Virus record (IMG/VR): IMGVR_UViG_3300047471_001049
Span: 1 to 31,833 of that record
Origin: a virus
DNA length: 31,833 nucleotides
Strand: one strand, 5' to 3'
The position numbers and the translations under genes are program-made. Each line of letters opens with the position of its first letter. Within the stretch, counting starts at the first letter, position 1. Below, one piece after another: positions 1-13,494 of the stretch. The notes below the pieces were generated by a model. It did not search any database. It saw only the letters and a program-made list of their open reading frames with translations, and was not told where the DNA came from.

Positions 1-2
1 TT

Positions 3-71
3 GAGCGCATGCTACGAGATTCCGCTCTAACCATTGCTGAGGTGGCCTATGAATCACATCGTCCCTGCTAA
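3..71 (+). pseudogene. Possible broken C-terminal end of an AraC-family regulator, cut by the window edge
   Basis: The reading frame open at the left edge encodes about 22 residues before a stop. Its middle, LRDSALTIAEVAYES, resembles the second helix-turn-helix of AraC-type regulators (pattern L..S.L.IAEVAY..GF). After that the expected Gly-Phe and following helix are missing and the frame stops, so if the resemblance is real this is a truncated or frameshifted remnant. The stretch is very short and chance similarity is possible. Confidence 0.2.
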
Positions 72-108
72 TGAGCAGGACCGCGAGCAATCGGTCATGA
101 AGGATTAA
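49..108 (+). CDS. Possible 19-residue leader peptide
   Basis: A short frame starts with ATG at 49, preceded by GAGGTG at a good distance, and ends in TAA two bases before the next start at 111. It encodes MNHIVPANEQDREQSVMKD. Its stop lies inside the same kind of stop-CG-ATG junction that links later small genes here (for example TAACGATG at 505-512), which is the main reason to list it. No function can be assigned; it may simply be spacer. Confidence 0.25.
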   Translation: MNHIVPANEQDREQSVMKD

Positions 109-110
109 CG

Positions 111-281
111 ATGATGCACGATGACATCTTGCTTGAACGGGCGCTTGCCATCCTGCACCGCATGGCGACTGAACAGACAGGGTGGCGACGGCTTTTTGCC
201 CGCGACCAAGACCCAAGCCGCGCCCCATACCGGACGGCTGGCCCTGGCGAAGGTCCGGCATCAAATGATTGGCCTCACTAG
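111..281 (+). CDS. Small protein of unknown function (56 aa), tail frame uncertain
   Basis: ATG at 111 follows AAGGATTAACG. The N-terminal part (MMHDDILLERALAILHRMAT) looks like a genuine amphipathic helical start. From about residue 31 the DNA is the first copy of an 80-bp direct repeat, read here in a different frame from the second copy inside the 644-775 gene. In the frame used by that gene the first copy is also open, from an ATG at 121 to a TGA at 286-288, and ends in the same kind of junction before 292. The gene may therefore be a recombination product whose original tail is now out of frame. Unknown function. Confidence 0.4.
   Translation: MMHDDILLERALAILHRMATEQTGWRRLFARDQDPSRAPYRTAGPGEGPASNDWPH
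200..279 (+). repeat. Direct repeat copy 1 (80 bp)
   Basis: Bases 200-259 are identical to 675-734, and the match continues to 279/754 with four differences (at 260, 263, 272 and 275). The offset between copies is 475 bp. In this copy the gene starting at 111 reads it in another frame than the gene at 644. Confidence 0.95.
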
Positions 282-291
282 GGAATGAACG
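280..291 (+). promoter_or_regulatory. Ribosome-binding junction AGGGAATGAACG before the gene at 292
   Basis: AGGGAATGAACG directly precedes ATG 292. The same sequence, with only T/G variation in the middle, precedes the starts at 510 and 935. AGGGA supplies the Shine-Dalgarno element and the TGA inside it can end an upstream frame. Confidence 0.6.
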
Positions 292-507
292 ATGAAGCAC
301 GATCCGGTTCAGTTTGTCAGAGGAACGATAGTCGGCGGCAATAGTGAAGCCGAGCGTATGGATTTAATCCGCGACCGTGAATGGGGAACCATTAGCAGCC
401 AGAAGCCACGACGCGGATTAGTGACGGTGCACTGGCATGGGACCGGAACTTACGAGACATGGCATACCAACCTCCTGGAAATTATCGACCATTCAATAGG
501 GAATTAA
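292..507 (+). CDS. Small basic/aromatic protein of unknown function (71 aa)
   Basis: A 71-residue protein beginning MKHDPVQFVRGTIVGG. It contains a patch rich in His, Trp and Thr (VHWHGTGTYETWHTNLLEII) near the C-terminus, in the style of small single-domain beta proteins that bind nucleic acid or another protein; that is only an impression. The start is set by AGGGAATGAACG immediately upstream. Its stop TAA at 505-507 sits inside the ribosome site of the next gene, so translation is probably coupled. It belongs to the rightward run of small accessory genes. Not recognised as a named family. Confidence 0.65.
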   Translation: MKHDPVQFVRGTIVGGNSEAERMDLIRDREWGTISSQKPRRGLVTVHWHGTGTYETWHTNLLEIIDHSIGN

Positions 508-509
508 CG
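498..509 (+). promoter_or_regulatory. Ribosome-binding junction AGGGAATTAACG before the gene at 510
   Basis: AGGGAATTAACG precedes ATG 510. It encodes the last codons and the TAA stop of the 292-507 gene and at the same time holds the Shine-Dalgarno sequence of the next gene. It is one of three near-identical junctions in this run. Confidence 0.6.
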
Positions 510-641
510 ATGCACCCCAGCAATCCATTTGGCCCATTCCTTCGGCGCTACCCGACGACAGCAACGACGGTTGAAATTTGGCGCTATTGCTATGTCTTTT
601 ACGATACCGAGGGCCGCGAAGTTCTAATCGAGTGGCACTAA
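510..641 (+). CDS. Small protein of unknown function (43 aa)
   Basis: Encodes a 43-residue protein starting MHPSNPFGPFLRRYPT and ending in a likely beta hairpin, CYVFYDTEGREVLIEWH. The ATG at 510 is chosen over an in-frame ATG at 459 because the latter lies within the 292-507 gene and lacks a ribosome site, whereas 510 follows AGGGAATTAACG. Two bases separate its start from the upstream stop. Function unknown; it lies among small accessory genes. Confidence 0.55.
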   Translation: MHPSNPFGPFLRRYPTTATTVEIWRYCYVFYDTEGREVLIEWH

Positions 642-643
642 TA

Positions 644-775
644 ATGATGAATGAACGATATCGGCAAGCAAAAGCCGCGACCAAGACCCAAGCCGCGCCC
701 CATACCGGACGGCTGGCCCTGGCGAAGGTCCGGCGTCGAATGATTGACCGCACTGATGAGGGAAATAACGAATGA
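644..775 (+). CDS. Small basic helical protein (43 aa) carrying direct-repeat copy 2
   Basis: The frame starts with tandem ATGs (MMNERYRQAKAATKTQ) two bases after the previous stop and ends in DRTDEGNNE. The protein is basic and helical. Most of its coding DNA is the second copy of the 80-bp direct repeat also found at 200-279. The TGA stop at 773-775 overlaps the ATG of the next gene in an ATGA arrangement, which supports translation of both. No strong Shine-Dalgarno is visible, so expression may depend on coupling. Unknown function. Confidence 0.5.
   Translation: MMNERYRQAKAATKTQAAPHTGRLALAKVRRRMIDRTDEGNNE
675..754 (+). repeat. Direct repeat copy 2 (80 bp)
   Basis: Second copy of the repeat at 200-279, with 76 of 80 bases identical. 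Here it is in frame with the 644-775 gene and encodes ATKTQAAPHTGRLALAKVR and the residues after it. Confidence 0.95.
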
Positions 776-924
776 CGTGCGGAAGCTGTAACCAACCAGC
801 CGACACCTCCCCGGACTATAACGGGATTAAGTTGCCCGCTCTGGTCTCAGGAAACCGCCGCTGTCGGGGAAAAAGAAGCGGCGTTGTCGGGTTGCGCCCG
901 ACCCGCACGGCCAATCATTTCTAG
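772..924 (+). CDS. Small Cys-containing protein of unknown function (50 aa)
   Basis: ATG 772 overlaps the stop of the preceding gene (ATGA) and is preceded by AGGGAAATAACGA. The 50-residue product begins MTCGSCNQPADTSPDYNG, so it has an N-terminal C-x-x-C pair, plus a third Cys followed by a very basic stretch (NRRCRGKRSG). This is compatible with a small metal-binding or nucleic-acid-binding peptide, but no second complete Cys pair is present. Its TAG stop lies just upstream of the junction that starts the 935 gene. Confidence 0.5.
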   Translation: MTCGSCNQPADTSPDYNGIKLPALVSGNRRCRGKRSGVVGLRPTRTANHF

Positions 925-934
925 GGAATGAACG
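923..934 (+). promoter_or_regulatory. Ribosome-binding junction AGGGAATGAACG before the gene at 935
   Basis: This sequence is identical to the junction at 280-291. The TAG stop of the upstream gene (922-924) overlaps its first two bases and ATG 935 follows directly. Confidence 0.6.
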
Positions 935-1096
935 ATGCGGGAAATAAGTCACGACGAGGCTTTAGAGGCTGTGCGCCGATTTGAAAATCATTTCTGGCGA
1001 CGTGAGCCGGGGCCGCACATCGAGATACCCGCTAGGCCGGATCAGGACGACGATCTGATCCTACACACCTACATCGAGCAACAGCGTAATCGCTAA
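935..1096 (+). CDS. Small acidic protein of unknown function (53 aa)
   Basis: Encodes a 53-residue protein starting MREISHDEALEAVRRFENHF, a probable amphipathic helix, followed by an acidic segment (RPDQDDDLILHTYIEQQ). The start follows the recurring AGGGAATGAACG junction, which makes the gene call fairly secure despite its size. It ends in TAATGATGAATGA, a sequence that also occurs with slight variation at 642-654. Family not recognised. Confidence 0.6.
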   Translation: MREISHDEALEAVRRFENHFWRREPGPHIEIPARPDQDDDLILHTYIEQQRNR

Positions 1097-1120
1097 TGAT
1101 GAATGACCGATGAGGGGGAA

Positions 1121-1549
1121 ATGACTGCGGTTTGGGAAGCTTTTCTGGCTACCATGGTCATCGCTGTTTGGCTGATGACCGTCGTCTGTACCGCGATCAT
1201 CGTCTGGCTTTTCCTGACAGCGCAAAGCCATGCTGCCGAATGCCTTAATAAGAGCGAGGCTCGCGCCAAGTATCATAGCAGCCACATCTGGTGGCATGGG
1301 GATGAACACTGCTGGGATAATAGTCCGGGCAGGAAGCCCGAGATCAGCGTCGAGAAAGCGACCACCGAGACCAAGGCGGCGACGGTCTACTACCCCGATA
1401 TGCAGCCCGGATTATTCGGCTTTGCGCCAGTAATTCCGCTGTCATGGGCTTTGCCGCTCTACTCGCCCTATTCGATCGCGACCTGGCCGCCGATGATCGA
1501 CGTTGACCGGGTGCCGTTTACGGCTTGGAGCAAGCGGATTGGGGAATAG
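1121..1549 (+). CDS. Secreted or membrane-anchored Cys-paired protein (142 aa)
   Basis: The first 39 residues are strongly hydrophobic and end in a plausible signal-peptidase site (AQSHAA before E40), so the protein is probably exported or anchored. The periplasmic part begins with C41 and a second Cys at about 64 in the pattern ECLNKSEA...HIWWHGDEHCW. That spacing recalls small periplasmic proteins common in Bradyrhizobium-like bacteria whose two Cys probably form a disulphide (recall, not searched). ATG 1121 is preferred over the in-frame ATG at 1103 because GAGGGGG lies just upstream of it. The gene ends four bases from the convergent 1554-1955 gene. Confidence 0.65.
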   Translation: MTAVWEAFLATMVIAVWLMTVVCTAIIVWLFLTAQSHAAECLNKSEARAKYHSSHIWWHGDEHCWDNSPGRKPEISVEKATTETKAATVYYPDMQPGLFGFAPVIPLSWALPLYSPYSIATWPPMIDVDRVPFTAWSKRIGE

Positions 1550-1553
1550 GAAT

Positions 1554-1955
1554 TCATTTCGGCGCATAGGGATTGCGCATCAGTTCCTGTTCCCGCTGGT
1601 TGGCGCCGTCCAATGCTGCGATATAGGCGCTCGCCGCCTTGCGGATGCCGTTAAGCGCCCGATCCGGCTGCCCGGTTTCGTCCCGCATCCACGTCGCAAA
1701 CAAGAGTTCTACTTGATGGCGATAGGCGGCCTCGAGCGCATCCCTATCCACGACCAACAAATGCGCGTCGTATTGCGACCGCTGCAGCGGCGGCGGATCT
1801 CCCGCTCCCTCGCTGACAAAGAACATGGCGAGCAGAAGCACCGCCAACCCACCAAAGACGATAAGACGGCCCAACCAGATAACTGGCGAGGATGAACCGA
1901 ATCTGGCCGTAATGTATTGACGTAATATTCGCATAGCATTACGGCGCTTCGCCAT
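1554..1955 (-). CDS. Small single-pass membrane protein of the lysis region, spanin-like candidate
   Basis: A 133-residue protein with a basic N-terminus, one membrane segment at about residues 25-46 (IWLGRLIVFGGLAVLLLAMF) and a soluble C-terminal part of about 85 residues that is largely helical and charged. This N-in/C-out layout directly after the amidase and hydrolase genes suits an inner-membrane spanin or another lysis accessory. No partner lipoprotein gene was found, and it could be an unrelated envelope protein. ATG 1955 has AGGAG 13 bases upstream; an alternative ATG at 1934 lacks a ribosome site. The start overlaps the previous gene by 17 bases. It is the last gene of the leftward chain. 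Confidence 0.5.
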   Translation of the reverse strand: MAKRRNAMRILRQYITARFGSSSPVIWLGRLIVFGGLAVLLLAMFFVSEGAGDPPPLQRSQYDAHLLVVDRDALEAAYRHQVELLFATWMRDETGQPDRALNGIRKAASAYIAALDGANQREQELMRNPYAPK

Positions 1956-2634
1956 GGTGCAGCGTCATCTCCTGCACGCCACGCCGTATCATTCCGACGC
2001 CAGTCTTAACCTTGGCCGCACCGCGCCGGACCAGCGCGCCGCCGTGGCCGTAATGCAATCGATCGGAATCGAAATTCGGTGACTCGCCGCCCGCAGTCCA
2101 TTTGATCGCGCGCAACACGTCGGCTTGGTAATCGGGATCGGTGTCGCTTTGACCATGCGTCTCCGGGCGATAGATGTTCAAGATGCGCCCAGTAAATCCC
2201 GACCCCGCCACCAGCTGCTTGCAGCCAAGGCCACTGACGCAGCCACCATAGGTGACCTGGCCGTAACCAACATTGGCGCCAAGATCGAAACCGCCGCAGT
2301 GCTCTGACATTTGCATGCCGGCAATGGTGTCGATGTGGCGCGTGGCATCGTGCGCAATGACGGTCGCTTTGTTCATCCCGCACGAGTAGCCGATCACCAC
2401 GACCTTGTCCTCTGGCGGAACGCCATCGATGTCCCGTTCGGTGCGCCGCCACTCGGACTGATTGTAAACCGCGACATGGGTGATGCCGGGAATGTTGCGC
2501 GCCTGCTCGACGATCTGATCGATGCCGACGGACGTCCGCTGACCGCCGAGGCCATAGAACGCAAATAGCCGCGTCCCGGCAGCAGCCGGCCCGCACAGCG
2601 CAGTCGCCATCAACACAATAATCAGCTTGCGCAT
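1939..2634 (-). CDS. Secreted alpha/beta-hydrolase-like protein in the lysis module
   Basis: 231 residues. Residues 1-19 form a classical signal peptide (MRKLIIVLMATALCGPAAA) with cleavage expected before G20. The mature part starts with a beta strand and a Gly-rich turn (LFAFYGLGGQ), and residues 82-86 read GYSCG, the nucleophile elbow G-x-S-x-G with Ser84 after a hydrophobic strand (KVVVI). His160 in ETHGQSDTD, with nearby aspartates, is a candidate for the catalytic His; several Cys (113, 132, 138) could form disulphides. The start overlaps the amidase stop by one base (TGATG). An esterase or lipase acting on the cell envelope during lysis, analogous in position to mycobacteriophage LysB, is an inference; the substrate is unknown. 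Confidence 0.65.
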   Translation of the reverse strand: MRKLIIVLMATALCGPAAAGTRLFAFYGLGGQRTSVGIDQIVEQARNIPGITHVAVYNQSEWRRTERDIDGVPPEDKVVVIGYSCGMNKATVIAHDATRHIDTIAGMQMSEHCGGFDLGANVGYGQVTYGGCVSGLGCKQLVAGSGFTGRILNIYRPETHGQSDTDPDYQADVLRAIKWTAGGESPNFDSDRLHYGHGGALVRRGAAKVKTGVGMIRRGVQEMTLHHGEAP

Positions 2635-3611
2635 CAGGCCATTTCCTCGTCCCAGGGGAAAATAATCTCGACCTCATCATCGGTCCGCAGCTTCAAGTCA
2701 TCCATCAGGCCGGGCGAGAGATCGGCGATGCGACCGGTATCTTCATGCGGCCCCCAATCAGCGGGAAATGCTTTGAGCGCCACGCCCGTCTTGTTATTGC
2801 GGACCAATGCCACTTCCTCGCGCAACATCTCGCGCGATGTCACGTCATAGTCCCAGCGGCAGGCGAGATAGTGAATGAACGGATTAAGCCGCCGCGCCAG
2901 CCCGGTCGTGCCTTCCGGCTGATAGGGCAGGAATAGCTGCGGCATTTGCTCGATGTCGTCGATAAAGGCTAAGCCCTCGTCGGCCGACACACCATCGTCG
3001 TTCGGCCCGCCGAAGTGCGAGCACTTGCCGACCGCGTAGAATTCTTGTTCAGGTCCCAGCTGTTCGGTAAATGGCAGCACCGTCTTTTCGCCGGATAATG
3101 CATCGGCGATGGCGGTACAGATGGCCTCGAAGTGTTTGCGATACAAATCAGCATCCGCCTTGCTATCGACAAAACACGTCTCGATCAGGATCGACGGCAT
3201 ATCCGTTTTGTTCAGAAAGAATAGATCAGTGCGTTTCTTCGGCCCGCGATCGAGGAAATGCCCGGCATCGGCGATCGCGCTTGCCACATCGGCTGCCAGC
3301 TCGCTCTGCGTCAAATAAAGGCATTCGGTCCCCATCGCCTTGCTGGTCTGCTCGTAGGCGTTGAAGTGAATACTGACATCGAGATCGCGGACCTGCGCGT
3401 TATGGAAATCGACGATGCGATTTAGATTCTCGTTCTGCGTCGTGCTCACATCGTCGTTGAAAGTCTTGGTTGGCACGCCAGAGCCGTTCAATATCGTGGC
3501 CACCAATGCCACGACACGGCGCGCCTCGTTGACTTCATCGAGGCCCCACGGCGATGGCCCGGCGGCGCCGCGCACGAATTTGGAGTGGCCGGAAGAAATT
3601 ACAGTTTTCAC
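2634..3611 (-). CDS. Endolysin: N-acetylmuramoyl-L-alanine amidase (Amidase_3) with a double-psi-barrel-like C-terminal domain
   Basis: Residues 1-172 match the zinc amidase Amidase_3. The expected metal ligands are H9 (SSGHS), E29 (NEARR) and H82 (VSIHFNA), and the catalytic Glu is E144 in ILIETCFV. These enzymes cut the amide bond between N-acetylmuramic acid and L-alanine of peptidoglycan. The remaining 150 residues are not a usual wall-binding repeat. They run from YAVGKCSHFGGPNDDGVS to IADLSPGLMDDLKLRTDDEV, which reads like the closing strands of an RlpA-type double-psi beta-barrel. There is no signal peptide, so a holin or similar release is expected. The start is GTG 3611 with AGGA somewhat far upstream. 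Confidence 0.85.
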   Translation of the reverse strand: MKTVISSGHSKFVRGAAGPSPWGLDEVNEARRVVALVATILNGSGVPTKTFNDDVSTTQNENLNRIVDFHNAQVRDLDVSIHFNAYEQTSKAMGTECLYLTQSELAADVASAIADAGHFLDRGPKKRTDLFFLNKTDMPSILIETCFVDSKADADLYRKHFEAICTAIADALSGEKTVLPFTEQLGPEQEFYAVGKCSHFGGPNDDGVSADEGLAFIDDIEQMPQLFLPYQPEGTTGLARRLNPFIHYLACRWDYDVTSREMLREEVALVRNNKTGVALKAFPADWGPHEDTGRIADLSPGLMDDLKLRTDDEVEIIFPWDEEMA

Positions 3612-3629
3612 TGGGTTTGTTGTCCTACT

Positions 3630-4469
3630 TCATGGTGTTCGTATGGGCGTGCCGCGTGCCAGCGTCAAGACACCGGCGCCAGGAACTAACGACTTGAATA
3701 ATCTTGGTGCGCTTCCGGAAAGCAGAAGCGCCGCAGAGCTTGGCTGTACGGCGGGATTTATCGCAGATTGCAATCGGCCGAATAGATCCCACTCATTGGT
3801 ACCGATCTTTTTCAACGTCACCACAGCGCCAATCACGGCCGTAATCGGTGCGCTGTCCAGAGGATGATTCAGTATCACACCGCTAGCGGCTTGAAATATT
3901 AGTGCGTCGCCGTTTTGGCGAAAGCTGATTTCTGAATTCAGTGGAATGGATACATCGGCCAAGGCCGGAATTGTAATGATGATGCTCCCCGACGCCACCG
4001 ATGTGCAGCGATAATATTTAAGATTGTCGCTTCCTTGCAGCGTATAAGTCGCCGCCGACATCTGGGCCGATTCGGTCTGACCCATCGGTCCAAAAATGAA
4101 ATCATAAATATTATTGCCGCCGATCTGCGCGCCAGCGTCAAACGTGAGATTGCTAGTATGGGCAATCTTGACCAAATAAAGATTGGATGACGCGATAACG
4201 AGATCATTGACTGCATAAGTCGTCGACGGTTGCCAATCGCCACGGCCATGCCACTGTGCCGTCGGGATGGTGACGGTGTCGGAGCCGCCGCCGGCCGCAG
4301 TGGTGTAATGAAACGTCAGTTGATTGCCGGCAATTGTTATGGCGTCGATTGGATTGCTGACGCTGATGTTCTCAAGCCCGACGACTCGGCCATCCAGATC
4401 GCTAATGTTGCCGTCTTGCTCGGCAAACGTAAGTGCCGAGCCTTTGACGAGTCGATATGTGAGTGGCAT
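3630..4469 (-). CDS. Tail fibre / receptor-binding candidate with a CBM5/12-like motif
   Basis: 279 residues. The N-terminal 70 residues are beta-rich. Residues 73-108 (WHGRGDWQPSTTYAVNDLV, then YLVKIAHTS) have the Trp, Tyr and NDLV pattern of the short carbohydrate-binding modules (CBM5/12-like) often built into phage fibres. Next comes a beta-rich shaft with LKKIGTNEWDLFG near its end. The last 37 residues contain the motif PSSAALLLSGSAPRLF, which matches the 22-residue repeat of the 782-residue protein at 13820-16168. Its ATG directly follows the stop of the 4470-5210 gene. Role inferred: binding a surface glycan of the host. Confidence 0.6.
   Translation of the reverse strand: MPLTYRLVKGSALTFAEQDGNISDLDGRVVGLENISVSNPIDAITIAGNQLTFHYTTAAGGGSDTVTIPTAQWHGRGDWQPSTTYAVNDLVIASSNLYLVKIAHTSNLTFDAGAQIGGNNIYDFIFGPMGQTESAQMSAATYTLQGSDNLKYYRCTSVASGSIIITIPALADVSIPLNSEISFRQNGDALIFQAASGVILNHPLDSAPITAVIGAVVTLKKIGTNEWDLFGRLQSAINPAVQPSSAALLLSGSAPRLFKSLVPGAGVLTLARGTPIRTP
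3633..3743 (-). repeat. Stray copies of the P-A-x-x-L-x-L-x-G-x-A-P protein repeat at the end of the fibre
   Basis: Residues 243-279 of the fibre read PSSAALLLSGSAPRLFKSLV followed by PGAGVLTLARGTPIRTP: one good and one degenerate copy of the repeat unit seen about 18 times in the protein at 13820-16168, about 10 kb away. The spacing here is 20 rather than 22 residues. Confidence 0.65.
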
Positions 4470-5210
4470 TTACGCGCTCATTGATGGCAGCAGCGAATCC
4501 GAAACCGGATTATAGAAATACAGCGATTTGATTATCACCGGGCCGCCGGGCGTTCCCGCACCGTTGAAATCGTCCACGTTAATTCCTCCGAGATGATAAT
4601 TGTTGAAATGCGTGAACGAAACATGTGTCGCACCGCCATCATAAGACGCGCCGGTGTCGCTCGGATCCGGCAAGTGAACAAGAAGATTGCCGAAGCTGCC
4701 ATCCGTTCCTATTGGGAATCCATCCAGCGAAATTCGCAGCTTGGCGTTGGTGCGTGTCAACGCGATCTTGTGATGGCCGAATGCAAAAGTCCCATTTGAC
4801 GTGTCCTTGGCGCTCCGGCCGCCATCATTATTGTTCGAATCCGTCACTTGGCCATCGCCAAACCAAGATGACGCTTGAACCGAAGCCCCGGTAGCCCATT
4901 CTGCTAGTTCTAATAAGACCGAGCGTTGGGAATCGCTAAGGGTCTGGAAGTCAATAACTGCGGTAAAGCTACACAGGTCAAAGTAGTTCTTGAATGCCGA
5001 CGAGATGATGCTTGGCGCAACAGTATGGCCAGCATTTCCAACCTCTAATCCATTTACTGTGATGTAGCTGGGATTTGAAATCAGAGCGGCTGCTGTTATC
5101 GCAGTGCCGCCGACCGCATAATCGCCGGTCAAGAAGTTCATGCGCGCGACGTCCGATGGTCCGCCGGAGGTTGTCGGCCCGGCAATCTGGGTTTCAACGC
5201 CAAAAATCAC
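4470..5210 (-). CDS. Virion surface protein with probable LamG/concanavalin-like fold
   Basis: 246 residues with alternating strands, including FTAVIDFQTLSDSQRSVLLE, HHKIALTRTNAKLRISLDG and a final strand IIKSLYFYNP. These resemble the sandwich strands of LamG/concanavalin-A-like lectin domains often found in phage receptor-binding proteins. No enzymatic motif is visible. The start is GTG 5210, with only a weak ribosome site; an intergenic gap of 19 bases precedes it. It lies among fibre genes between the tail tip and the endolysin, so a host-binding or fibre-associated role is likely. The fold assignment is by eye. Confidence 0.5.
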   Translation of the reverse strand: MIFGVETQIAGPTTSGGPSDVARMNFLTGDYAVGGTAITAAALISNPSYITVNGLEVGNAGHTVAPSIISSAFKNYFDLCSFTAVIDFQTLSDSQRSVLLELAEWATGASVQASSWFGDGQVTDSNNNDGGRSAKDTSNGTFAFGHHKIALTRTNAKLRISLDGFPIGTDGSFGNLLVHLPDPSDTGASYDGGATHVSFTHFNNYHLGGINVDDFNGAGTPGGPVIIKSLYFYNPVSDSLLPSMSA

Positions 5211-5229
5211 TTTGAATCATCCCGATTTG

Positions 5230-6306
5230 TTATGATGGCGGCACGAAAGTCGCGTCCGCCACCACTTCAGTTCCCTTGGACTGAAGCGGATCAAGTGTTT
5301 TAATGCTTGATATAAAAGTTGTAGCCAGAACAAAATCGACGCCGTCAACAGTGACCGCAACGCCAGCCAGACTAAACAGTGCTACATCTCCCGTCGGAAC
5401 TTCTGGGGAGTCAGGCGGGCTAAGCGGCGTCCCAAATATTGCAACGCTAAGCGTGGTTCCACTGGTTTGGACAGGCGCCTCGCCAAGAGTGCCCCACGGC
5501 CCGCCGGTCGGCGAAAAGCTCTGCGGTGACACCGTCGCATCGTGCGTTATAACTACCGTTCGCGTTCCCGCGCCGCCGATAGATGACATGCGGATCCAAG
5601 TAGCCGAGGATATTGCGGGAATGCCTGTCGTTTCGCGGACAAATGACCACGAGACGGAAACGCCGCCCTCTTGGCCATGCCAGTTCACAATATTCTGCAG
5701 CGGATCAATTCTATAGGGCGGATCGAAGCCGTCTTCGGAATCGGCCAGGTCTAAACCGGGATCGCAAAAGCCCTTTGTGACATCATAAGGAACCTTAGAG
5801 TTATCGACCGGATCGCCCTTATCGTCATTGCGGATATATAACTCATATTCCTGATACTGCTCTTGCGGCAGCGCGGCGTTCAATTGATCGATCTGCTCTA
5901 CGTCAACCCAAACTTCGGAGCTTTCGTCATTATCCTTGAAAAATCGAACGACATGCTTTTTCTGGTGCGCGGGCGAATCTTCGCCCGACGGCTGAACTGG
6001 AGCAGGATCTTTATTGATCAAAACCCATTCGGTTTCTTGATATTGATCGGCCGCCGATCTGGTAAAAAAACTCTGAATGCGCTCGACATCGATAAACTTG
6101 TCCGTCGTAAGGCTTTTGACCTGCTGCACTCTAGTCTTGCGTGATGACTTTGACGAATTATCAAAGAAAAAATGACCCTCCTGGTATTGCTCGGCCGCAG
6201 TTATGAAGCTCGCATCGTAATTTACAGGAATATCAACGAAAAGCGTATTGTCGGGCGGAAATTTAATGCGTTTTCGTTTCTGTTTTCGGTCGGCATTCTG
6301 CGCCAT
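5230..6306 (-). CDS. Probable tail-tip appendage protein with three QYQE repeats (358 aa)
   Basis: After a basic start (residues 1-14) come three divergent repeats of about 50-60 residues. Each holds an acidic strand such as FVDIPVNY, FIDVERIQSF or VWVDVEQIDQ and closes with QYQE at residues 40-43, 88-91 and 150-153, followed by an aromatic strand (HFFFDN, EWVLIN, YELYIRN). Residues 195-358 are a different, beta-rich domain with a Gly/Thr-rich surface (WIRMSSIGGAGTRTVVITHD). The start overlaps the stop of the upstream gene (TAATG). Family not recognised; position suggests a structural part of the tail tip or fibre. Confidence 0.6.
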   Translation of the reverse strand: MAQNADRKQKRKRIKFPPDNTLFVDIPVNYDASFITAAEQYQEGHFFFDNSSKSSRKTRVQQVKSLTTDKFIDVERIQSFFTRSAADQYQETEWVLINKDPAPVQPSGEDSPAHQKKHVVRFFKDNDESSEVWVDVEQIDQLNAALPQEQYQEYELYIRNDDKGDPVDNSKVPYDVTKGFCDPGLDLADSEDGFDPPYRIDPLQNIVNWHGQEGGVSVSWSFVRETTGIPAISSATWIRMSSIGGAGTRTVVITHDATVSPQSFSPTGGPWGTLGEAPVQTSGTTLSVAIFGTPLSPPDSPEVPTGDVALFSLAGVAVTVDGVDFVLATTFISSIKTLDPLQSKGTEVVADATFVPPS

Positions 6307-6521
6307 TATTGCTTCGGCTTCTCGCGCATCTTCTTGATGGCGTAGTAAGTCTGATCGATTGTTTGCGAGCCAAACATCAGCTTGACCGATGTGCCCTTGC
6401 CAAAATCCAGCGTCGTGGTATTGCCCGCGCTATCGCCGCCGGAAGTGCCGCTGTTCGGCAATGGCGTCGGCGAAATATCGCCGAGCTGCGCCGGCCGGAC
6501 AACCTTTTCAAAAACGCTCAT
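6306..6521 (-). CDS. Small tail-tip-associated protein (71 aa)
   Basis: A 71-residue protein whose centre is rich in Gly, Ser and Thr (PLPNSGTSGGDSAGNTTTLD) between two short ordered segments, ending KKMREKPKQ. It sits between the large tail-tip gene and the QYQE-repeat gene with ATGA and TAATG overlaps on its two sides, so it is surely translated with them. It could be a linker or a small assembly component. Family not recognised. Confidence 0.6.
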   Translation of the reverse strand: MSVFEKVVRPAQLGDISPTPLPNSGTSGGDSAGNTTTLDFGKGTSVKLMFGSQTIDQTYYAIKKMREKPKQ

Positions 6522-8638
6522 ACGGCCGACGCCTCGAGATTGATAGTCTGCGGCACTAGAAGCGGCTGTACGTTCAGATCGCTGACATCTTCGAGCGCCA
6601 GGCTATCGACGTTGCGCAACACGATCTCGACGTAGATGTCATGGCCGCGCATCGCGGTCTCGACCAGACCACTGGCATTGGACGTCGCGTTGCGTTTGCC
6701 TTCCAGATCCCGCGCCGCCGAAGCGGCAAGTTCGAGCGCGCCCTGGATGGCATTGGCCTGATCGGTGACCGAGCCATGAACGTGAGCCGAGACCAATACG
6801 TCAGCCTTTGTCAGCGGCATCGGATTATCGATCGCGCTGGCGACAGGTGGCGAATAGGCCAGATCGAAAAACCCGCCCGCAGTCGACGTTCCGGCACCGC
6901 CGAATAGCGGCACCTGCTGACCGGGCTGGGCAAAAAAGCCGTCGGCAACATAACCGGCATTAACATAAAGCTCGCCGGTAGCTGCACCATGCTGAGTGGT
7001 TTCGGAAACACCGCGACCAACGGTCGCCATGATCGTCACGTTACCGCCGATCTTGCCGTTATTGCCATCGGCGATGATCGTGTATTGGCTGATCTTGCCG
7101 CTGGCCTGGCCACCCGGCAGTTCTTTCCAAATCAAGGTTGCATTCTTCCGGCAAGTGAATTGCATGGCGCGACCAAACGGCACCGACCATGACATCTCGA
7201 CCAGGCGCGCGCCATTGAGCAGCAGCGCCCGCGCCCGCAGCAACAAATATTCGGTCGATTGCTGGCCGCGCGGCGTCGCGAAATAGTTGGCGACTGACGG
7301 GTCGCTAAGTGGTGCTACGCCGTCGATGGCCACCGTGACGTCGGCGCCGTTGAGCTCGAGGATCGTCTCGTCCGGCGGATTGGCATTGCTGGAAGTGTCG
7401 AAATCGCTCGGATCGGTCAGCACCGGTTGAATGTCCGAGACCATAGTAAAATTCATGTGCTCGGTGCGGCCGCGGCCCTGCTCATAGGTAATCGCCAGCG
7501 AAGCTTGAATTTCCGATACTGGCGCGACCGCCCAGGCATTATCGTAATGCATGGGAATATTGATGACGTCGCCGGCCTGGTCCGGACTCGGCAGATTGTC
7601 CCATTCAGGAAAGTCCGGCGGCCGATCGCTCGGTATATCCATTGATGGCGACCAGATAATGCCCGGTTGTGCATCCTCGTAAAGCAATTGATTGATGAAC
7701 GGGCCGCGCACCACTGGACTCGACGTGTTGACCGAGGTCGACATCGGGTCGCCGGTGTTGTGTTTCTTCGCCGTGTTGTGCCAGGTGAAATTATAAGTGC
7801 TGTTCGCGTCGTTGGCGACGTCGGCAAGATCGAAAGCAGATGAGCCCTTCGCGGCTGCCCAACCGCCGCCAATGCTGGTCCCTGGCTTTGGCCAGCTTGA
7901 TAGAATGGATCCTCCGGTAAAAGTATTAAACGACCATGAGCCGATATTGATCGCCGGTCCGGTCGGCATTTTTTGGGTCCAGCCAACCGATGCCTTGACC
8001 GTGACGTCGGTCATCGGCGCACCGGCAATGCGAAGATTCACGCTGGTCGGATCGACGCCGGCGGGAGCAGCGGTCGAACTCTCGAAAGTCTCGGTGCCGT
8101 CTTCGCCGATGCAAATATCGCTGATCGAAACCGTCAGCGGCCCGCCGTCCTCGCCGCGGCTGCAATGCCAGCGCGCCGAGCGAGCTTCGAGCGCGGTATC
8201 GACATCACCGACATGGGTCGACGATTCAATGCGCAGCTTCTCGTCGATGAAAAGCTTATCGTAGAATGGCAGGATCGCGAGATCCTCGGCCAAGGTCCGC
8301 CGCTGCGCCGCAAAGTCGATCGGCTTCGCCACGAATATCAGCGTCAGCAATTCGGCAAAGCCCGTCGCCGAACCCCCCATGTCCGGTATGCCAAGCAAAC
8401 GGCCAAAAAATAACGGCTGAGCCCCAGCGGTCCCACTGTCGCTGAAACTCAGCCAGCCCCAGACTTTGCGGCCTGCGGCCAATAAACCGATTTTCGGATT
8501 CTTTATGGTCAGCGACAGCTGCGCGCATTCGCCCTCGCGATGCGTGATCGTGAACGAAAATACCTTCTCGTCATAGCGCACATGGCTCCCCGAAAACGTC
8601 GTTTCCGAGCTGTTAACCCATGCAAAGTAAAATTGCAT
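6518..8638 (-). CDS. Large tail-tip / tail hub protein (706 aa)
   Basis: The N-terminal 130 residues have the conserved opening of a family of phage tail proteins downstream of the tape measure: VFSFTITHREGECAQLSLTI, then KNPKIGLL and PLFFGRLLGIPDM. The middle contains SDICIGEDGTETFE and long beta-rich segments; near residues 455-480 there is YFATPRGQQSTEYLLLRAR. The C-terminus has a helical stretch (DQANAIQGALELAASAARDL). Its size and place after the tape measure and a conserved small tail protein fit a baseplate hub, the role played by central-tail proteins such as lambda gpJ, but sequence similarity to gpJ itself is not claimed. Two bases separate it from the upstream stop. Confidence 0.7.
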   Translation of the reverse strand: MQFYFAWVNSSETTFSGSHVRYDEKVFSFTITHREGECAQLSLTIKNPKIGLLAAGRKVWGWLSFSDSGTAGAQPLFFGRLLGIPDMGGSATGFAELLTLIFVAKPIDFAAQRRTLAEDLAILPFYDKLFIDEKLRIESSTHVGDVDTALEARSARWHCSRGEDGGPLTVSISDICIGEDGTETFESSTAAPAGVDPTSVNLRIAGAPMTDVTVKASVGWTQKMPTGPAINIGSWSFNTFTGGSILSSWPKPGTSIGGGWAAAKGSSAFDLADVANDANSTYNFTWHNTAKKHNTGDPMSTSVNTSSPVVRGPFINQLLYEDAQPGIIWSPSMDIPSDRPPDFPEWDNLPSPDQAGDVINIPMHYDNAWAVAPVSEIQASLAITYEQGRGRTEHMNFTMVSDIQPVLTDPSDFDTSSNANPPDETILELNGADVTVAIDGVAPLSDPSVANYFATPRGQQSTEYLLLRARALLLNGARLVEMSWSVPFGRAMQFTCRKNATLIWKELPGGQASGKISQYTIIADGNNGKIGGNVTIMATVGRGVSETTQHGAATGELYVNAGYVADGFFAQPGQQVPLFGGAGTSTAGGFFDLAYSPPVASAIDNPMPLTKADVLVSAHVHGSVTDQANAIQGALELAASAARDLEGKRNATSNASGLVETAMRGHDIYVEIVLRNVDSLALEDVSDLNVQPLLVPQTINLEASAV

Positions 8639-8640
8639 CG

Positions 8641-9090
8641 TTAGATTTCTTCAAGATCAATAGTCCAACTGACCGTCGCATCCCATTCGCTTTCCTGCGA
8701 CGACCAAGCGGTGATCATCATTTGCAGCTGCGGTCGGTAATGGTGCAGTCCGCCGGCATCGGTCCATTGCGAGCCGGCAACAACAGGTCGCAATGGCGAT
8801 CCCGCAGTGATTAATTCCGACACGCAATGCACAGTAAGTGCTTGGCCGGGCCAGATGCCATCGAAGGCCAACGGAAAGCGCGTGTCGTTATCCCCGCATT
8901 CGATATGTGAAGCATATTTGAAAAACGGAACATCGGCCTCAAGGTTGACCAGCTCGCCGTTGATGTCGCGCTGGATATTGGCGCCTGCCGCGGCAATCGG
9001 CGTCAACGTCTGCTTGAGCCCGCGCGCCGCGTAAAGCGGGATGCCGAGTGCCGAGAACACCAATAGAGTTTGGAAATCGCCCGACGGCAT
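8641..9090 (-). CDS. Conserved tail protein between tape measure and tail hub (149 aa)
   Basis: The sequence carries YAARGLKQTLTPIAAAG, then DINGELVNLE, the phrase FDGIWPGQALTVHC and a final TVSWTIDLEEI. This reads like a conserved small phage tail protein that I recall in alphaproteobacterial siphophages next to the hub gene. It may serve as a distal-tail adaptor; that is inferred from position. The start is placed at ATG 9090, which overlaps the tape-measure stop (TAATG), instead of the in-frame ATG at 9102. Confidence 0.65.
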   Translation of the reverse strand: MPSGDFQTLLVFSALGIPLYAARGLKQTLTPIAAAGANIQRDINGELVNLEADVPFFKYASHIECGDNDTRFPLAFDGIWPGQALTVHCVSELITAGSPLRPVVAGSQWTDAGGLHHYRPQLQMMITAWSSQESEWDATVSWTIDLEEI

Positions 9091-10982
9091 TAGCGCACCC
9101 AACCCGGCGCCCGGCCCATGCGCGACAGGTTGTGCAAGTCGGCAGCGCGCTCGAGATCATCGACGACGTTCTTGGCACCGGCCACGGCAAAGCTGCGGCC
9201 GTCGAGCACCAACGTCAACGACCGGGTCTGCCCTGCCATCGCCAAGCCCCCTTGTGCGAACCGTGGCGGTGACGGAAATGGCGGCAGCACCAGGCCACCG
9301 AGGTTGAAGCCGCGGAAGAAATCTTTGGGCAACCGCAGCGCATTAATAGCGTGCATGAAGTCCACGCCGTAGAACTTCACCGCGGCAGCGCGCATCACAT
9401 ATTCAAAGTTCGAGAGCCGCGCGAAAATGCTGTCGCTGGTTGTCGAACCCGGACCACTGACAAAACCGCCGCCGGCAAACTCGGTCACGCTCGGCGCGCC
9501 GCCGACGCCCGGCTGCGGCGGCTGGAATTTCGTGCTGTTGATGAGATTAACCAGCGCTTGCCACGCGGTTTGAATGGCCTGGAATGCCGTCTGCGCGGCG
9601 GTAACGAGGCTCTGCCAAATTGTCGAAAGCCCGGCAGAGAATGCCGCAGACATGGCAGCAATCAACTCATTTGCCCCGTCAAGCACGAGGCCGAAATCGA
9701 TACGGGCATAATCGACGAGAGGCCTGAGAAAGTCAGGAATATGAATTCCGTCCAACGTTTGCTGAATGTTTGTCGCAAGCGCTTCGAAAATGCCGATGCC
9801 CTGCTGATCTGCGGCCGGCTTGACGAAACTTGCTGTCAGTGCGTCGTGTATCGATTTTCCCGCGCTCTGCGCGAGCGCATTCAGATTATTAAGCTCGGTC
9901 GCGGCGTCTTGCGCACCCTTTTTAATGCCGGCAAACTCGGCGCCTCCGGCAAACGAATCGAATGCGGTTTTGAGCGACCGCACGCTTGCGGCCGCATCAT
10001 CGAATATCTTGCTGAGACCTAGCTCTCCAAGCGAGGCAAGAAGAGCTTCCGCAGACTTCTTCAGATCCTCGAACGATTTCGCGACGGTCACAGGAACCGG
10101 ATCGGCGATTTTCACCGCCGCCAGCGCGCGCATTACTTCCAGAAAACCAATCGGGCCCCTTCTCAGTCTTTCGAATATATTACCGCCTAGATTTCTCTCC
10201 AGCGCATCGCCAACAAATTGAGCAACCTCCGGCGCGGTGCGGCGAAGCTGCTCGAAGGCCTCGGCCGTCAAGCCGATGTTTTTGCCGGTCTTCGGATCGA
10301 ACCGGTTAAGCACGTCGAACAAGCTGTTAACCTTCGGCGAAGCTTGGGCACTGGTTTCGCCGAGGACCTCGAGTTGTTTTTCGAGATTGGCAATCGCCGC
10401 AGTAACCTGCTCTTGCTGCTGGGGACTGCCGAACGTCACCCTGCCGGATAGATCGACGCCTTTGAACGCTGATATCCGTTGCAATATTTGCTCGGCGGAC
10501 GTAAGCGCCGGTGCCAATGTTTCAGCCGATGCGCCGAGACCCTCGAGGCCCTTGCCGAGACTATCGACCGCAGCTTTGCCCTGGGCGCCGAATAGGAAAG
10601 CCATCGAGCGCTGCAGGTTGGCCATTTTGTCGGCCGCATTGGTGGCCGCAATGACGAGTCCGGCGCCGACCGCAACGGCAAGACCGGCAATGCCTTCGCT
10701 CGCCAGAACGGCAAACGAACGGAATTCGCCGGTCGAAATGCCGACTTCGGCCAAAATCGGATGCAGGATATGATAGGCTGCGGACAATTCATTCGTAGAT
10801 CGCGTCAGCCCCGCGGTCGCATTTTGCGCGCCTTGCAAACCTGCCGTAAAATTAGCAGGGATAAATTGCTGCCCGCTTTCCTTGAATTTTGCCAGTGCTT
10901 GCTCGCCGGCATCCGAAATCTTCTTCAGACTGGCGACGACCTGCTCGGCACCTTCCAGCGTGATGAATTGCTTAATTGCCAT
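9090..10982 (-). CDS. Tape measure protein (630 aa)
   Basis: A long, Ala-rich, mostly helical protein. The first 130 residues hold heptad-like stretches (GAEQVVASLKKISDAGEQAL). A hydrophobic segment at about residues 95-115 (GIAGLAVAVGAGLVIAATNA) is typical of tape measures that enter the host membrane. Further helical regions are followed by a Gly-rich, aromatic C-terminal tail (FAGGGFVSGPGSTTSDSIFA). At 630 residues it would set a tail of roughly 90-100 nm by the usual 0.15 nm per residue rule. It follows the tail chaperone and a DUF6441-like gene. ATG 10982 has GAGGA five bases upstream. Confidence 0.85.
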   Translation of the reverse strand: MAIKQFITLEGAEQVVASLKKISDAGEQALAKFKESGQQFIPANFTAGLQGAQNATAGLTRSTNELSAAYHILHPILAEVGISTGEFRSFAVLASEGIAGLAVAVGAGLVIAATNAADKMANLQRSMAFLFGAQGKAAVDSLGKGLEGLGASAETLAPALTSAEQILQRISAFKGVDLSGRVTFGSPQQQEQVTAAIANLEKQLEVLGETSAQASPKVNSLFDVLNRFDPKTGKNIGLTAEAFEQLRRTAPEVAQFVGDALERNLGGNIFERLRRGPIGFLEVMRALAAVKIADPVPVTVAKSFEDLKKSAEALLASLGELGLSKIFDDAAASVRSLKTAFDSFAGGAEFAGIKKGAQDAATELNNLNALAQSAGKSIHDALTASFVKPAADQQGIGIFEALATNIQQTLDGIHIPDFLRPLVDYARIDFGLVLDGANELIAAMSAAFSAGLSTIWQSLVTAAQTAFQAIQTAWQALVNLINSTKFQPPQPGVGGAPSVTEFAGGGFVSGPGSTTSDSIFARLSNFEYVMRAAAVKFYGVDFMHAINALRLPKDFFRGFNLGGLVLPPFPSPPRFAQGGLAMAGQTRSLTLVLDGRSFAVAGAKNVVDDLERAADLHNLSRMGRAPGWVR

Positions 10983-11640
10983 TCGGGTCCTCGTATTCGT
11001 CGAGGTTTTTCAGATAGGCTTTCTCGATATTGTCCTCCGAGGCGACCTGCTTGATGATTCCATCGACGTCGAACTTCGGCGGAATGGTCACCGCCGGCAC
11101 ACCGACAAACAACGGGATCGTCTGAAACTTTTGGCCGCGGCCAAACGCAATACCTCGCCTCAGCCTCTGTCTCGTAATGCGCCGGCCAGGACTTGGTGTT
11201 GAACCGAAGGAAACTCGCGCCCCGAGCATCGGCGGCTTGCCGGCGCGATGCATGGTGATCAGCGGCCCGATGGTTTGAACATATTGCTTTGGCGTCATGT
11301 GTGGGCGGCCGAAGCCAGGCGGCACGTTCGGCAGCGGCAACCAGATGAACGGCTTGCCGACGATGGTCGCGCCACGCTCGAAAATGTCGGCGTAATTGAT
11401 CGTCGTGTGGATATAGGCCGAAGGATCAAGCGAATAACCGCTCGACGGATGGAATTTTACCACTAGCGAATTAGCGAACTTGTTGGAAAAACCGGCCGCG
11501 CTGATCGCCGCACGTCCGCCATCGCGCGCTTGCTTGGAAACGTCGCGCACCGCAAGAGTTTCGGCTTTGGCAATGAGCTTTTCGTAGGCGTTGGTCGCCT
11601 TGAGCCATTGTCCCGCCGGTGCGGTGGTAACGAGTTTCAT
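10972..11640 (-). CDS. DUF6441-like phage protein (222 aa)
   Basis: Begins MKLVTTAPAGQWLKATNAYE and includes an N-terminal helix, then YIHTTINYADIFERGATIVG and KPFIWLPLPNVPPGF, and a basic segment (GRRITRQRLRRGIAFGRGQK). The combination of a tail-module position and the AxIFExGAxIxGKPxLWLPL-type phrase recalls the DUF6441 family of phage proteins, which may act at the tail end or as a minor tail protein; this is recall, not a search. ATG 11640 is chosen because it overlaps the upstream stop in ATGA; the longer in-frame extension lies in the chaperone gene. Confidence 0.6.
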   Translation of the reverse strand: MKLVTTAPAGQWLKATNAYEKLIAKAETLAVRDVSKQARDGGRAAISAAGFSNKFANSLVVKFHPSSGYSLDPSAYIHTTINYADIFERGATIVGKPFIWLPLPNVPPGFGRPHMTPKQYVQTIGPLITMHRAGKPPMLGARVSFGSTPSPGRRITRQRLRRGIAFGRGQKFQTIPLFVGVPAVTIPPKFDVDGIIKQVASEDNIEKAYLKNLDEYEDPNGN

Positions 11641-12199
11641 CGCCGCGCTTTCATCTCTTGTTCGAGCCGCCTGTTGCGCTTGGCAATCAGGAACCCGTAG
11701 GCGGCGAGCTGTCGGGGCGTGAGTTGCCAGACGGCGTCGTAGGCGCCGCCCCAGCATTCGATGAGAGCTGTGACTGCTTCCGCATAACTTTCGCTAACGC
11801 TTTGTCGCGAATCTGATCCGGCGTCGGCGGAAACAGTGTGGTCAGCACCGTTGCCAGATCCTCGGCGAAAGGGCCGAAGCCCCGCGGCATGGTCAGCGAT
11901 ACGATCGGCGCCAGGAATTTGACCTGATACTGCGCCGGCAAGGCTGCCGCATTGGTTTCCCATTTCTCGTCGTTGGCATGGCCGCAGCCGGCAGCGATGA
12001 TGGCGCCGACCGCCGGGTTGCCGGCGTTCAACAATTCCCCGACAGCTGCTGGCCCCTTGCCGGAAAAAATAGTGTCCAGCAGCGGAAACCGGGTCAACAG
12101 GCCGGCAAATTCGGCCAGGCTGAGACCGTTGACGGCAAAGCTCTTGCCGTCGATCTCGACCTGTTTCGGGCCGGGTAGCAGATCAGCAAGTCCACTCAT
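11637..12199 (-). CDS. Tail assembly chaperone, predicted -1 frameshift product (GT-type)
   Basis: The frame below ends at 11687, but the -1 frame is open from 11963 to 11637 and encodes a C-terminal domain, ALIECWGGAYDAVWQLTPRQ and then AAYGFLIAKRNRRLEQEMKA, in the style of the T domain of lambda GT-like chaperones. That domain has no start codon of its own near its beginning, and its stop overlaps the next gene by ATGA, so it is best explained by ribosomal frameshifting from the upstream frame. With slippage at 11867-11873 the product would be 187 residues. GT-type proteins coat the tape measure and recruit tail tube protein during assembly. Confidence 0.55.
11687..12199 (-). CDS. Tail assembly chaperone, unshifted product (G-type, 170 aa)
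   Basis: Starts MSGLADLLPGPKQVEIDGKS at ATG 12199, overlapping the tail tube stop by ATGA. Typical features are the short beta opening that ends in a conserved gene-order position and the helical core (LSLAEFAGLLTRFPLLDTIF). The last 30 residues are Pro/Ser-rich and low in complexity. The position between tail tube and tape measure is the classical place of the G/GT chaperone pair. The real start excludes about 28 upstream residues that lie in the tail tube gene. Confidence 0.7.
   Translation of the reverse strand: MSGLADLLPGPKQVEIDGKSFAVNGLSLAEFAGLLTRFPLLDTIFSGKGPAAVGELLNAGNPAVGAIIAAGCGHANDEKWETNAAALPAQYQVKFLAPIVSLTMPRGFGPFAEDLATVLTTLFPPTPDQIRDKALAKVMRKQSQLSSNAGAAPTTPSGNSRPDSSPPTGS
11867..11873 (-). 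promoter_or_regulatory. Candidate -1 slippery heptamer C CCT TTC
   Basis: Read on the minus strand in the zero frame this is GGC CCT TTC, a perfect X XXY YYZ heptamer where both tRNAs can re-pair as CCC TTT. It is the only such heptamer in frame within the 277-base overlap of the two frames (11687-11963). Doubt remains because the zero frame still looks coding for about 35 residues after it, so slippage at a non-canonical site nearer 11790 is possible. Confidence 0.45.
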
Positions 12200-12684
12200 A
12201 CGGTGTTCGGCACAAACGTGACCGTACCCTGCGAGATCGTATAATTTTTCGTGCTGGGCGCCGTGATGCCATTGGTAGTCCAATGGCCATAGCCACCGCC
12301 TGAGAACAGCACCTTGGCGCTGACCGGCAAGAAAGCGAAATCATCGTTGTCGGCAAGCACCGAGAAGTCACCGCCAGGCTGCAGCTGCACCAGGCCGTTA
12401 AAAGTCAATAGAGCGCCGATGGCGTTGGTGCCGGTGAAGACCAGATCGCCCATGAGCTGCGGCGCAGTGAGCCCGGTTAGATGGGCCGTAGCGCCGACCT
12501 GCGCCAACAAATAAAGCGCCAGATTATATTGATTGATTTCCTCCAATTCCATTTTGATATTGGCGCCGAGTTGGCTGACGATCGAAAAGTCGAGAGCGCG
12601 GACCGAACTCATTTTGCTGTAATGATCCTTGGTCTGCACCGATGCCGAGTAGACGAACGACTTACAGTTACCGAGTATTGTCAT
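12196..12684 (-). CDS. Major tail tube protein (162 aa)
   Basis: Starts MTILGNCKSFVYSASVQTKD after AAAGGAAATAAGCC, a good ribosome site. The protein is mostly beta with a central helix (EEINQYNLALYLLAQ) and ends in QGTVTFVPNTV, matching the usual tube-protein layout of a beta-sandwich with long loop. It directly precedes the chaperone gene. The alternative, a tail-associated non-tube protein, is less likely given the order terminator-tube-chaperone-tape measure. Polymerises into the tail tube in the virion. Confidence 0.65.
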   Translation of the reverse strand: MTILGNCKSFVYSASVQTKDHYSKMSSVRALDFSIVSQLGANIKMELEEINQYNLALYLLAQVGATAHLTGLTAPQLMGDLVFTGTNAIGALLTFNGLVQLQPGGDFSVLADNDDFAFLPVSAKVLFSGGGYGHWTTNGITAPSTKNYTISQGTVTFVPNTV

Positions 12685-12697
12685 GGCTTATTTCCTT

Positions 12698-13150
12698 TCA
12701 CAGAGCCGTTGGGACAAATTCATAACCGACCGAGAACTGTGCGGTCAGCATCACCTGCGTGGCGCGACCGGGATGCAGGCTGGTCGAGCAGCCAAGATAT
12801 CGCGGGCCACCGTGACGACCGCCGCCGCATAAAGTCTTCAGGGTGGTATCGAGCAGCACTTTTTTGAGCAGTTTGACGCGCCAAGCATTGGTGCTGGTGC
12901 CGACAGTTTCCGGCACTTCGCCGAGCGAGATCACGATCTCCGGCGTCATGTGAACAATGTTGCCGGCACCACCGATCGCGTTGATGTTCTCGGCGGCAAT
13001 CTCATCGCCGTCATAAAGCACCGCGATAGCGCCGCCGGGCGGCACTTCGCTGATTTCCTCGAGGTTGCGTGCGGCAACGCTAACACCGTCGATCTGACCG
13101 AGCAGGACCGCTAACTGGGCCAGGATTATTTCACGATTATCAGTGCTCAC
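12698..13150 (-). CDS. Tail terminator / tail completion candidate (150 aa)
   Basis: Begins at GTG 13150 (STDNREIILAQLAVLLGQID) overlapping the previous stop as GTGA; the longer in-frame extension to 13240 lies inside the neighbour and is rejected. The phrase LGQIDGVSVAARN, a central AIAVLYDGDE strand and a mixed alpha/beta body resemble tail terminator proteins, which cap the tube and join it to the head. Gene order, directly before the tail tube gene, agrees. A sequence or structure search would settle the family. Confidence 0.5.
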   Translation of the reverse strand: MSTDNREIILAQLAVLLGQIDGVSVAARNLEEISEVPPGGAIAVLYDGDEIAAENINAIGGAGNIVHMTPEIVISLGEVPETVGTSTNAWRVKLLKKVLLDTTLKTLCGGGRHGGPRYLGCSTSLHPGRATQVMLTAQFSVGYEFVPTAL

Positions 13151-13494
13151 GCTTCGCCTTCGCTGAGCAGAATGAGCATGGTTTCGCCGGTCATCTCGCC
13201 GGTCGGCGCCGGCATTTGTCGGTAGGCTTTGATACGCCAACTCGCGCCGTTGAAGGTGATCTGGCTATTCGGCAGATCGGCCATCTCAATGCCATTGGCG
13301 ACGAGCTCGGCCGTGCGTACGCGGGCGACCGGGCGGATGCTTTCGACATTCATGCGATCCGACAATGCCACGCCTGCAGTCTTGTCGACCACGGCGACAG
13401 TGATCTCCGAGCCATCCGGGGACGTCAGCGTCGCATCAACAGCGACGGCAGCATAGACCGGGTTATAGAGCACGCCTTGATAATCGACTGTCAT
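13147..13494 (-). CDS. Head-tail joining (neck) protein candidate (115 aa)
   Basis: Starts at ATG 13494 (MTVDYQGVLYNPVYAAVAVD), which overlaps the upstream stop by ATGA; the longer frame to 13530 is upstream coding. The pattern of a short N-terminal strand, VVDKTAGVALSD, then a central NSQITFNGASWRIKAYRQMP close to the end matches small beta-barrel neck proteins comparable to lambda gpFII. It stands between two conserved structural genes ahead of the tail terminator candidate. Confidence 0.5.
   Translation of the reverse strand: MTVDYQGVLYNPVYAAVAVDATLTSPDGSEITVAVVDKTAGVALSDRMNVESIRPVARVRTAELVANGIEMADLPNSQITFNGASWRIKAYRQMPAPTGEMTGETMLILLSEGEA

Follow-up and report, generated by a model that had tools for sequence, protein, structure and literature searches.

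A chain of very small genes at the left end of a soil virus genome is probably a modular set of accessory genes, put together through recombination at short linkers. The genome, hereafter called the window, corresponds to the whole of an IMG/VR virus record (31,833 bases). Four related forms of the linker, each combining a stop codon, a ribosome site and a start codon, were found in arrays of micro-genes in at least nine soil virus contigs, most of which are otherwise unrelated. In the window, the chain occupies the + strand from 49 to 1,549 (Table 1), and the structural genes of a tailed phage (endolysin, tape measure, portal, major head protein and terminase) follow on the - strand from 1,554. 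Amid the latter, at 20799-22910, lie a methyltransferase gene (phrog_6564) and a sialyltransferase-like gene (phrog_4603), possibly with a role in capsid or surface modification.

Table 1. Genes, linkers and repeats of the micro-gene array in the window.
Feature	Position	Strand	Remarks
First small ORF, 19 aa (MNHIVPANEQDREQSVMKD)	49..108	+	identical in sibling phage
Linker form 3 TCATGAAGGATTAACGATG	95..113	+	L123/L157 identity ends exactly at 113; form also in L165 and L184
Micro-gene, 56 aa	111..281	+	3' half is the 80-nt repeat, in a frame differing from gene 644
80-nt direct repeat, copy 1	200..279	+	right end adjoins linker
Linker form 1 CACTAGGGAATGAACGATG	276..294	+	all three frames stopped
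Micro-gene, 71 aa, orphan	292..507	+	stop within next linker
Linker form 1 CAATAGGGAATTAACGATG	494..512	+	
Micro-gene, 43 aa, orphan	510..641	+	
Linker form 2 TAATGATGAATGAACGAT	642..659	+	
Micro-gene, 43 aa	644..775	+	contains repeat copy 2
80-nt direct repeat, copy 2	675..754	+	
Linker, degenerate form 1 GATGAGGGAAATAACGAATG	755..774	+	
Micro-gene, 50 aa	772..924	+	
Linker form 1 TTCTAGGGAATGAACGATG	919..937	+	linker and next 16 nt also in sibling, elsewhere in array
Micro-gene, 53 aa	935..1096	+	first 19 nt and 3' linker common to a sibling gene with unrelated middle
Linker form 2 TAATGATGAATGACCGATG, then AGGGGGAA and ATG	1094..1123	+	
Last array gene, membrane/secreted-like	1121..1549	+	sibling homologue, dN 0.16, dS 1.0

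The original prediction had pointed to a recurring junction before the starts at 292, 510 and 935, and this was an understatement: an exact AGGGAAT[GT]AACG (280-291, 498-509 and 923-934) is immediately followed by each of these ATG codons, and no further exact copy occurs on either strand of the 31.8 kb, the chance expectation in Markov-shuffled sequence being about 0.01. The upstream stop codons at 106-108, 505-507 and 922-924 do lie in or at the junctions. As to the looser versions of the motif proposed before 111 and 772, the second holds, with a single mismatch at 759-770, and the first is in fact a recurrent linker type in its own right (TCATGAAGGATTAACGATG); the only other one-mismatch copy, at 2870, is unrelated. 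The separate linker type before 111 had been missed, as had three other features. One is a sister linker, form 2 (TAATGATGAATGAACGAT), at 642-659 and 1094-1111. Another is a direct repeat of 80 nt (200-279 and 675-754, 95% identical), whose right boundary is a linker and whose left boundary lies inside genes. As to the third, alignment with the sibling homologue described below places the probable start of the last array gene at 1121, 1103 being also possible. The fourth form, CCTCGCCAATGAGCAGGAGGGGAAATGA, encodes the ALANEQEGK* C-terminus of a protein and also provides the start of the one that follows.

The linkers are confined to the arrays. Counted with at most one mismatch, GAATKAACGATG occurs six times inside and once outside the array of the window, five times inside and never outside in G005, and four times inside and never outside in G004; form 4 is found twice in G005, both times inside. 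A single form-4 match outside an array (G024:19928) looks like chance. It had been proposed that the motif would lose its significance if it were equally common before unrelated host genes, reflecting just a local Shine-Dalgarno preference. Within the array phages the motif is not equally common before other genes, and GGGAATKAACGATG, again with at most one mismatch, is present in none of 16 further virus records that the endolysin had retrieved.

At 43 of 47 array starts, at least two upstream frames are stopped within 26 nt around the ATG, and at seven of them all three are. The corresponding values for at least two frames are 22% at random positions and 8/30 at the other gene starts of the window, a comparison in which a high rate at linkers is partly expected because the genes abut. 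Association of stops in two to three frames with a ribosome site and an ATG suggests why joins can tolerate any frame. The benefit is visible in the window itself, where the 80-nt repeat is used in two frames, in ORF 111 and in ORF 644, each of which ends at or just past a linker.

Evidence for exchange at the linkers comes from a near-twin of the window, a sibling contig of 34,768 bp (L123, also L157/L167) located in IMG/VR via the endolysin. From 1,935 to 16,132 of the window, the two are 99.8% identical over 14.2 kb. Upstream of 1,935 the situation changes: DNA identity is 73% in the last array gene and the one next to it, and the segment from 114 to about 1,100 has unrelated contents, with six micro-genes in the window against one in the sibling. 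Positions 1-113 are again 100% identical, and the match ends at ...GAAGGATTAACGATG, that is, with the linker and its start codon. Hence identity breaks at the linker ATG itself rather than at a gene end, and other micro-genes follow. In the sibling, the gene order is a repressor-like gene, a GIY-YIG nuclease gene, the array (+) and the structural genes (-).

Further arrays were collected from IMG/VR with longer linker patterns (G001, G002, G003/G004, L186, which is G024, L187, and the 185-kb L184/G023). L036, retained from the first motif scan, is the most distant array and has the linkers alone in common with the others. Exact matches to a single motif in viral contigs amounted to at least 119 stretches, mostly background-like, and the analysis was restricted to contigs that have several linkers or longer ones. 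Forms 1, 2 and 4 co-occur in the sibling and in G004, and forms 1 and 4 in G002. Within the fetched stretches of the array contigs, tblastn with the terminase, portal, head and tape-measure proteins of the window returned nothing beyond the sibling, and the endolysin matched, besides the sibling, G002 only (55%). In G002 (L162 19500-20000), the array is immediately preceded by a nucleotide-sugar epimerase-like gene (368 aa), the end of which extends into the linker (..AATNRE*).

Linker-bounded cassettes nevertheless recur between these otherwise unrelated phages. A 159-bp cassette, delimited on either side by a linker, has 97% identity between the AT-rich, 185-kb L184 and the 30-kb G004. G004 and L187 match at 99.3% for 140 nt, as far as a linker, and then diverge. 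The left end of a 1.3-kb block common to G001 and G004, contigs otherwise unrelated, is the ribosome site of its first gene. A cassette shared by G002 and G004 begins at a linker and ends on the right at an internal patch coding IAKLRAAL, hereafter the LRAAL patch. Over nine arrays, 87 of 130 clusters of homology ends fall in linker zones, for an expectation of 26.9 +/- 6.1, and none of 5000 shifts reaches 87; this statistic is inflated by linker-to-linker matches, so that the long blocks matter more. The latter offer about ten free ends, roughly seven of them at linkers and two at the LRAAL patch. Thus, gene content between junctions does vary and small genes appear to be shuffled like cassettes, as had been anticipated. 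In contrast, there is no sign that the junction itself is mobile; it acts as a homology seam rather than as a mobile element.

Cassettes with homologues have dN/dS values of about 0.06-0.21, and the shared ones are 83-98% identical with synonymous-biased changes. Such purifying selection implies that several of them are real proteins. Some array cassettes may nevertheless be non-functional or non-coding. For instance, the ORF at L165:15763-15888 has 97% DNA identity with 1865-1990 of L184 (reverse strand), and a 2-nt indel shifts the frame, so that, judging from the sequence, this cassette may be decayed or non-coding. The out-of-frame repeat in gene 111 points the same way. Predicted RNA folds of cassettes were no better than those of shuffled sequences, and a search against Rfam returned only tRNAs, in L184.

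On the above basis, the following mechanism appears probable. Positions 1-1549 of the window would be the accessory end of a rightward, probably early, operon, in which genes of 40-150 aa abut via linkers. Each linker unites a ribosome-binding stretch with an ATG and with stop codons that cover two frames or more, and ribosomes terminating in a linker would restart on the next gene by translational coupling. As identical linkers of 17-30 nt are found between successive genes and in different phages, the comparisons above support a second role for them, as short stretches of homology where a phage annealing recombinase of the RecT/Red-beta type, or the host, would recombine co-infecting genomes. 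Entire genes, or fragments fused in a different frame, could then be swapped without damage to translation downstream, and a second patch within some genes, coding EIAKLRAALE, would allow exchange of gene halves. The shortest segment that can be paired has been given as 23-27 bp with Red-beta and 31-34 bp with RecA (PMC3945230), and the 17-30 bp shared by linkers would therefore suit an annealing recombinase. Exonuclease VIII and RecT are encoded in the array-bearing record G004; no recombinase was recognised in the early region of the sibling, a region that the window does not contain. A run of micro-genes in L186 (7860-9890) has variable ends, an internal EIAKLRAALE-like segment and ALANEQEGK C-termini, its products being apparently chimeric coiled-coil microproteins.

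Several other explanations were considered. The linker might be only a favoured context for translation start, selected or tandemly duplicated, in which case mosaic borders would fall there since selection acts on whole genes. The AGGG or GGAG stretches found 7-9 nt upstream of the ATG in linkers agree with this idea, the start-associated sequences (SAS) of mycobacteriophages have been read likewise, and a local duplication such as that of 80 nt in the window could copy a linker. However, bases with no ribosome role are conserved too (CACTAAT, AACG and the ALANEQEGK-coding DNA), form 2 has no real Shine-Dalgarno sequence, the remaining genes of these phages are not preceded by linkers, and the identity with the sibling stops at an ATG. 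We thus regard a start context by itself as an unlikely explanation.

Another possibility is a shared cassette pool, in which common linkers would be the standard plug for micro-genes among unrelated soil phages (30-45 kb and 185 kb), possibly with a linker-recognising enzyme leaving a target duplication of about 25 bp. This we hold to be rather improbable. In L184, at 1828-2344 of the reverse strand, a two-cassette block of 467 bp begins with AGGGAATTAACGATG and ends with GGATTAACGATG. Its G+C content is 55%, against 39% and 43% for the flanks, and a 25-bp direct repeat, imperfect by one mismatch, lies on both sides of it; the whole resembles an insertion with duplication. When the flanks are joined, a gene is restored that ends in ...KDVEEYKTI* and overlaps the next start. 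The sequence thus provides good evidence that the two cassettes entered L184 as a unit. Related loci (56-60% in the neighbouring gene) were found without the site, but no natural empty site, so that an empty-site allele is supported by the flank join only. Eight tRNA genes are clustered in the same locus (L184 1-2400, - strand).

All data being metagenome contigs, the exchanges could also be imagined to be chimeric assemblies joined at repeated linkers. Several contigs do end inside the array (the window, G001, G002, G003 and L187), and linkers repeat exactly. However, the final k-mers usually employed are longer than the linkers, two contigs whose names refer to different samples carry the G003/G004 array without a single difference over 16,094 bp, and breaks recur across contigs named for several samples. 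Moreover, the L184 block lies inside a 185-kb contig, where a k-mer join leaves the 25-bp duplication and the restored frame unexplained, and the cassettes have diverged with the synonymous bias given above. Assembly artefacts are therefore very improbable. As for a dedicated mobile-cassette system, integron- or transposon-like, with an enzyme that recognises the linker or the ends and inserts cassettes, it would fit the direct repeat around the L184 block and the host gene that is intact without it, but is hardly to be credited given that inverted repeats of at least 10 nt are absent at the linkers of the G005 and G004 arrays and none was recognised at those of the window, that no integron integrase or transposase was recognised near the arrays, that four unlike linker forms are in use, that the neighbours of the inserted copy differ, and that a homology-driven crossover with a donor already carrying the 25-nt segment accounts for the repeat.

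Recombination at the linkers, our preferred reading, has parallels elsewhere: the array resembles several known systems in its working and is by sequence a member of none of them. The nin genes of lambda make up a chain whose members are closely packed and overlap by ATGA (Kroger & Hobom 1982, as quoted in PMC8022706). Like those of lambda- and P22-like phages, the array genes are small, mostly nonessential accessory genes, probably lying late in an early right operon and mosaic between phages; stops lie in or at the linkers and TGA/ATG overlaps occur in the arrays. In the sibling, the array stands between the early and the structural genes, at what would be the operon end, early expression being deduced from position. 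On the other hand, the host group is another one, no sequence relation to nin gene families was detected (scanned micro-proteins had no match in Pfam or PHROG beyond weak coiled-coil ones), and the linkers are longer, come in several interchangeable forms and stop two to three frames.

Short conserved boundary sequences have been proposed as recombination points, although most mosaic borders are said to be without them (refs 21 and 22, as quoted in PMC3029335). As in that proposal, where homology at module borders drives shuffling, mosaic breakpoints coincide here with a conserved boundary. The difference is that this boundary is a stop/ribosome-site/start unit present many times per array, in phages without other detected homology. 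SAS and ESAS of cluster K mycobacteriophages are start-adjacent repeats restricted to non-structural genes, with stops within some (PMC3203893). They share with the linkers an asymmetric repeat of about 13 bp in one orientation before the ATG of small non-structural genes, rare or absent elsewhere and joined to different gene families. However, the SAS consensus GGGATAGGAGCCC is unlike the linkers, the hosts differ, the 17-bp inverted repeats are absent here, and SAS are not known to have been reported as breakpoints between near-identical siblings. In T4-like phages, PeSLs are promoter/stem-loop cassettes (Arbiol 2010 and Comeau 2014, as cited in PMC4503421), also recurring intergenic units through which small early genes are shuffled. 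They combine an early promoter with a terminator stem-loop, whereas the linkers of the window have neither and would act at the translation level. Affiliation to PeSLs was rejected because no promoter-like site or junction terminator was found in window 1-1600, scanned with a sigma-70-type consensus only. An assignment to integron cassettes was rejected because the junctions have no attC-like inverted repeats and no integron integrase was recognised near the arrays.

Searches with the micro-proteins against Pfam, PHROGs, NCBIfam and PADLOC gave nothing above noise, with weak coiled-coil matches only, and an AlphaFold model of the 71-aa protein (pLDDT 49) was set aside. The anti-host activity that had been suggested for such genes is thus neither supported nor refuted by these results. 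The arrays and linkers have no nucleotide match in GenBank phages (50,697 records) and plasmids. One 31-nt match to an archaeal virus record was observed for L186. An endolysin-based search of genome contigs returned no prophage relative, and the form 4 linker had no match in genomes. The nearest relatives of the terminase are from Labrenzia and Agrobacterium phages (about 50%), a similarity that only hints at an alphaproteobacterial host.

In these phages, the seams are visible, repeated and common to otherwise unrelated genomes, and a near-identical pair shows exchange stopping at a seam. This offers a testable case for how phages gather many small unknown genes. The linkers are, in addition, DNA tags for finding accessory islands in metagenomes.
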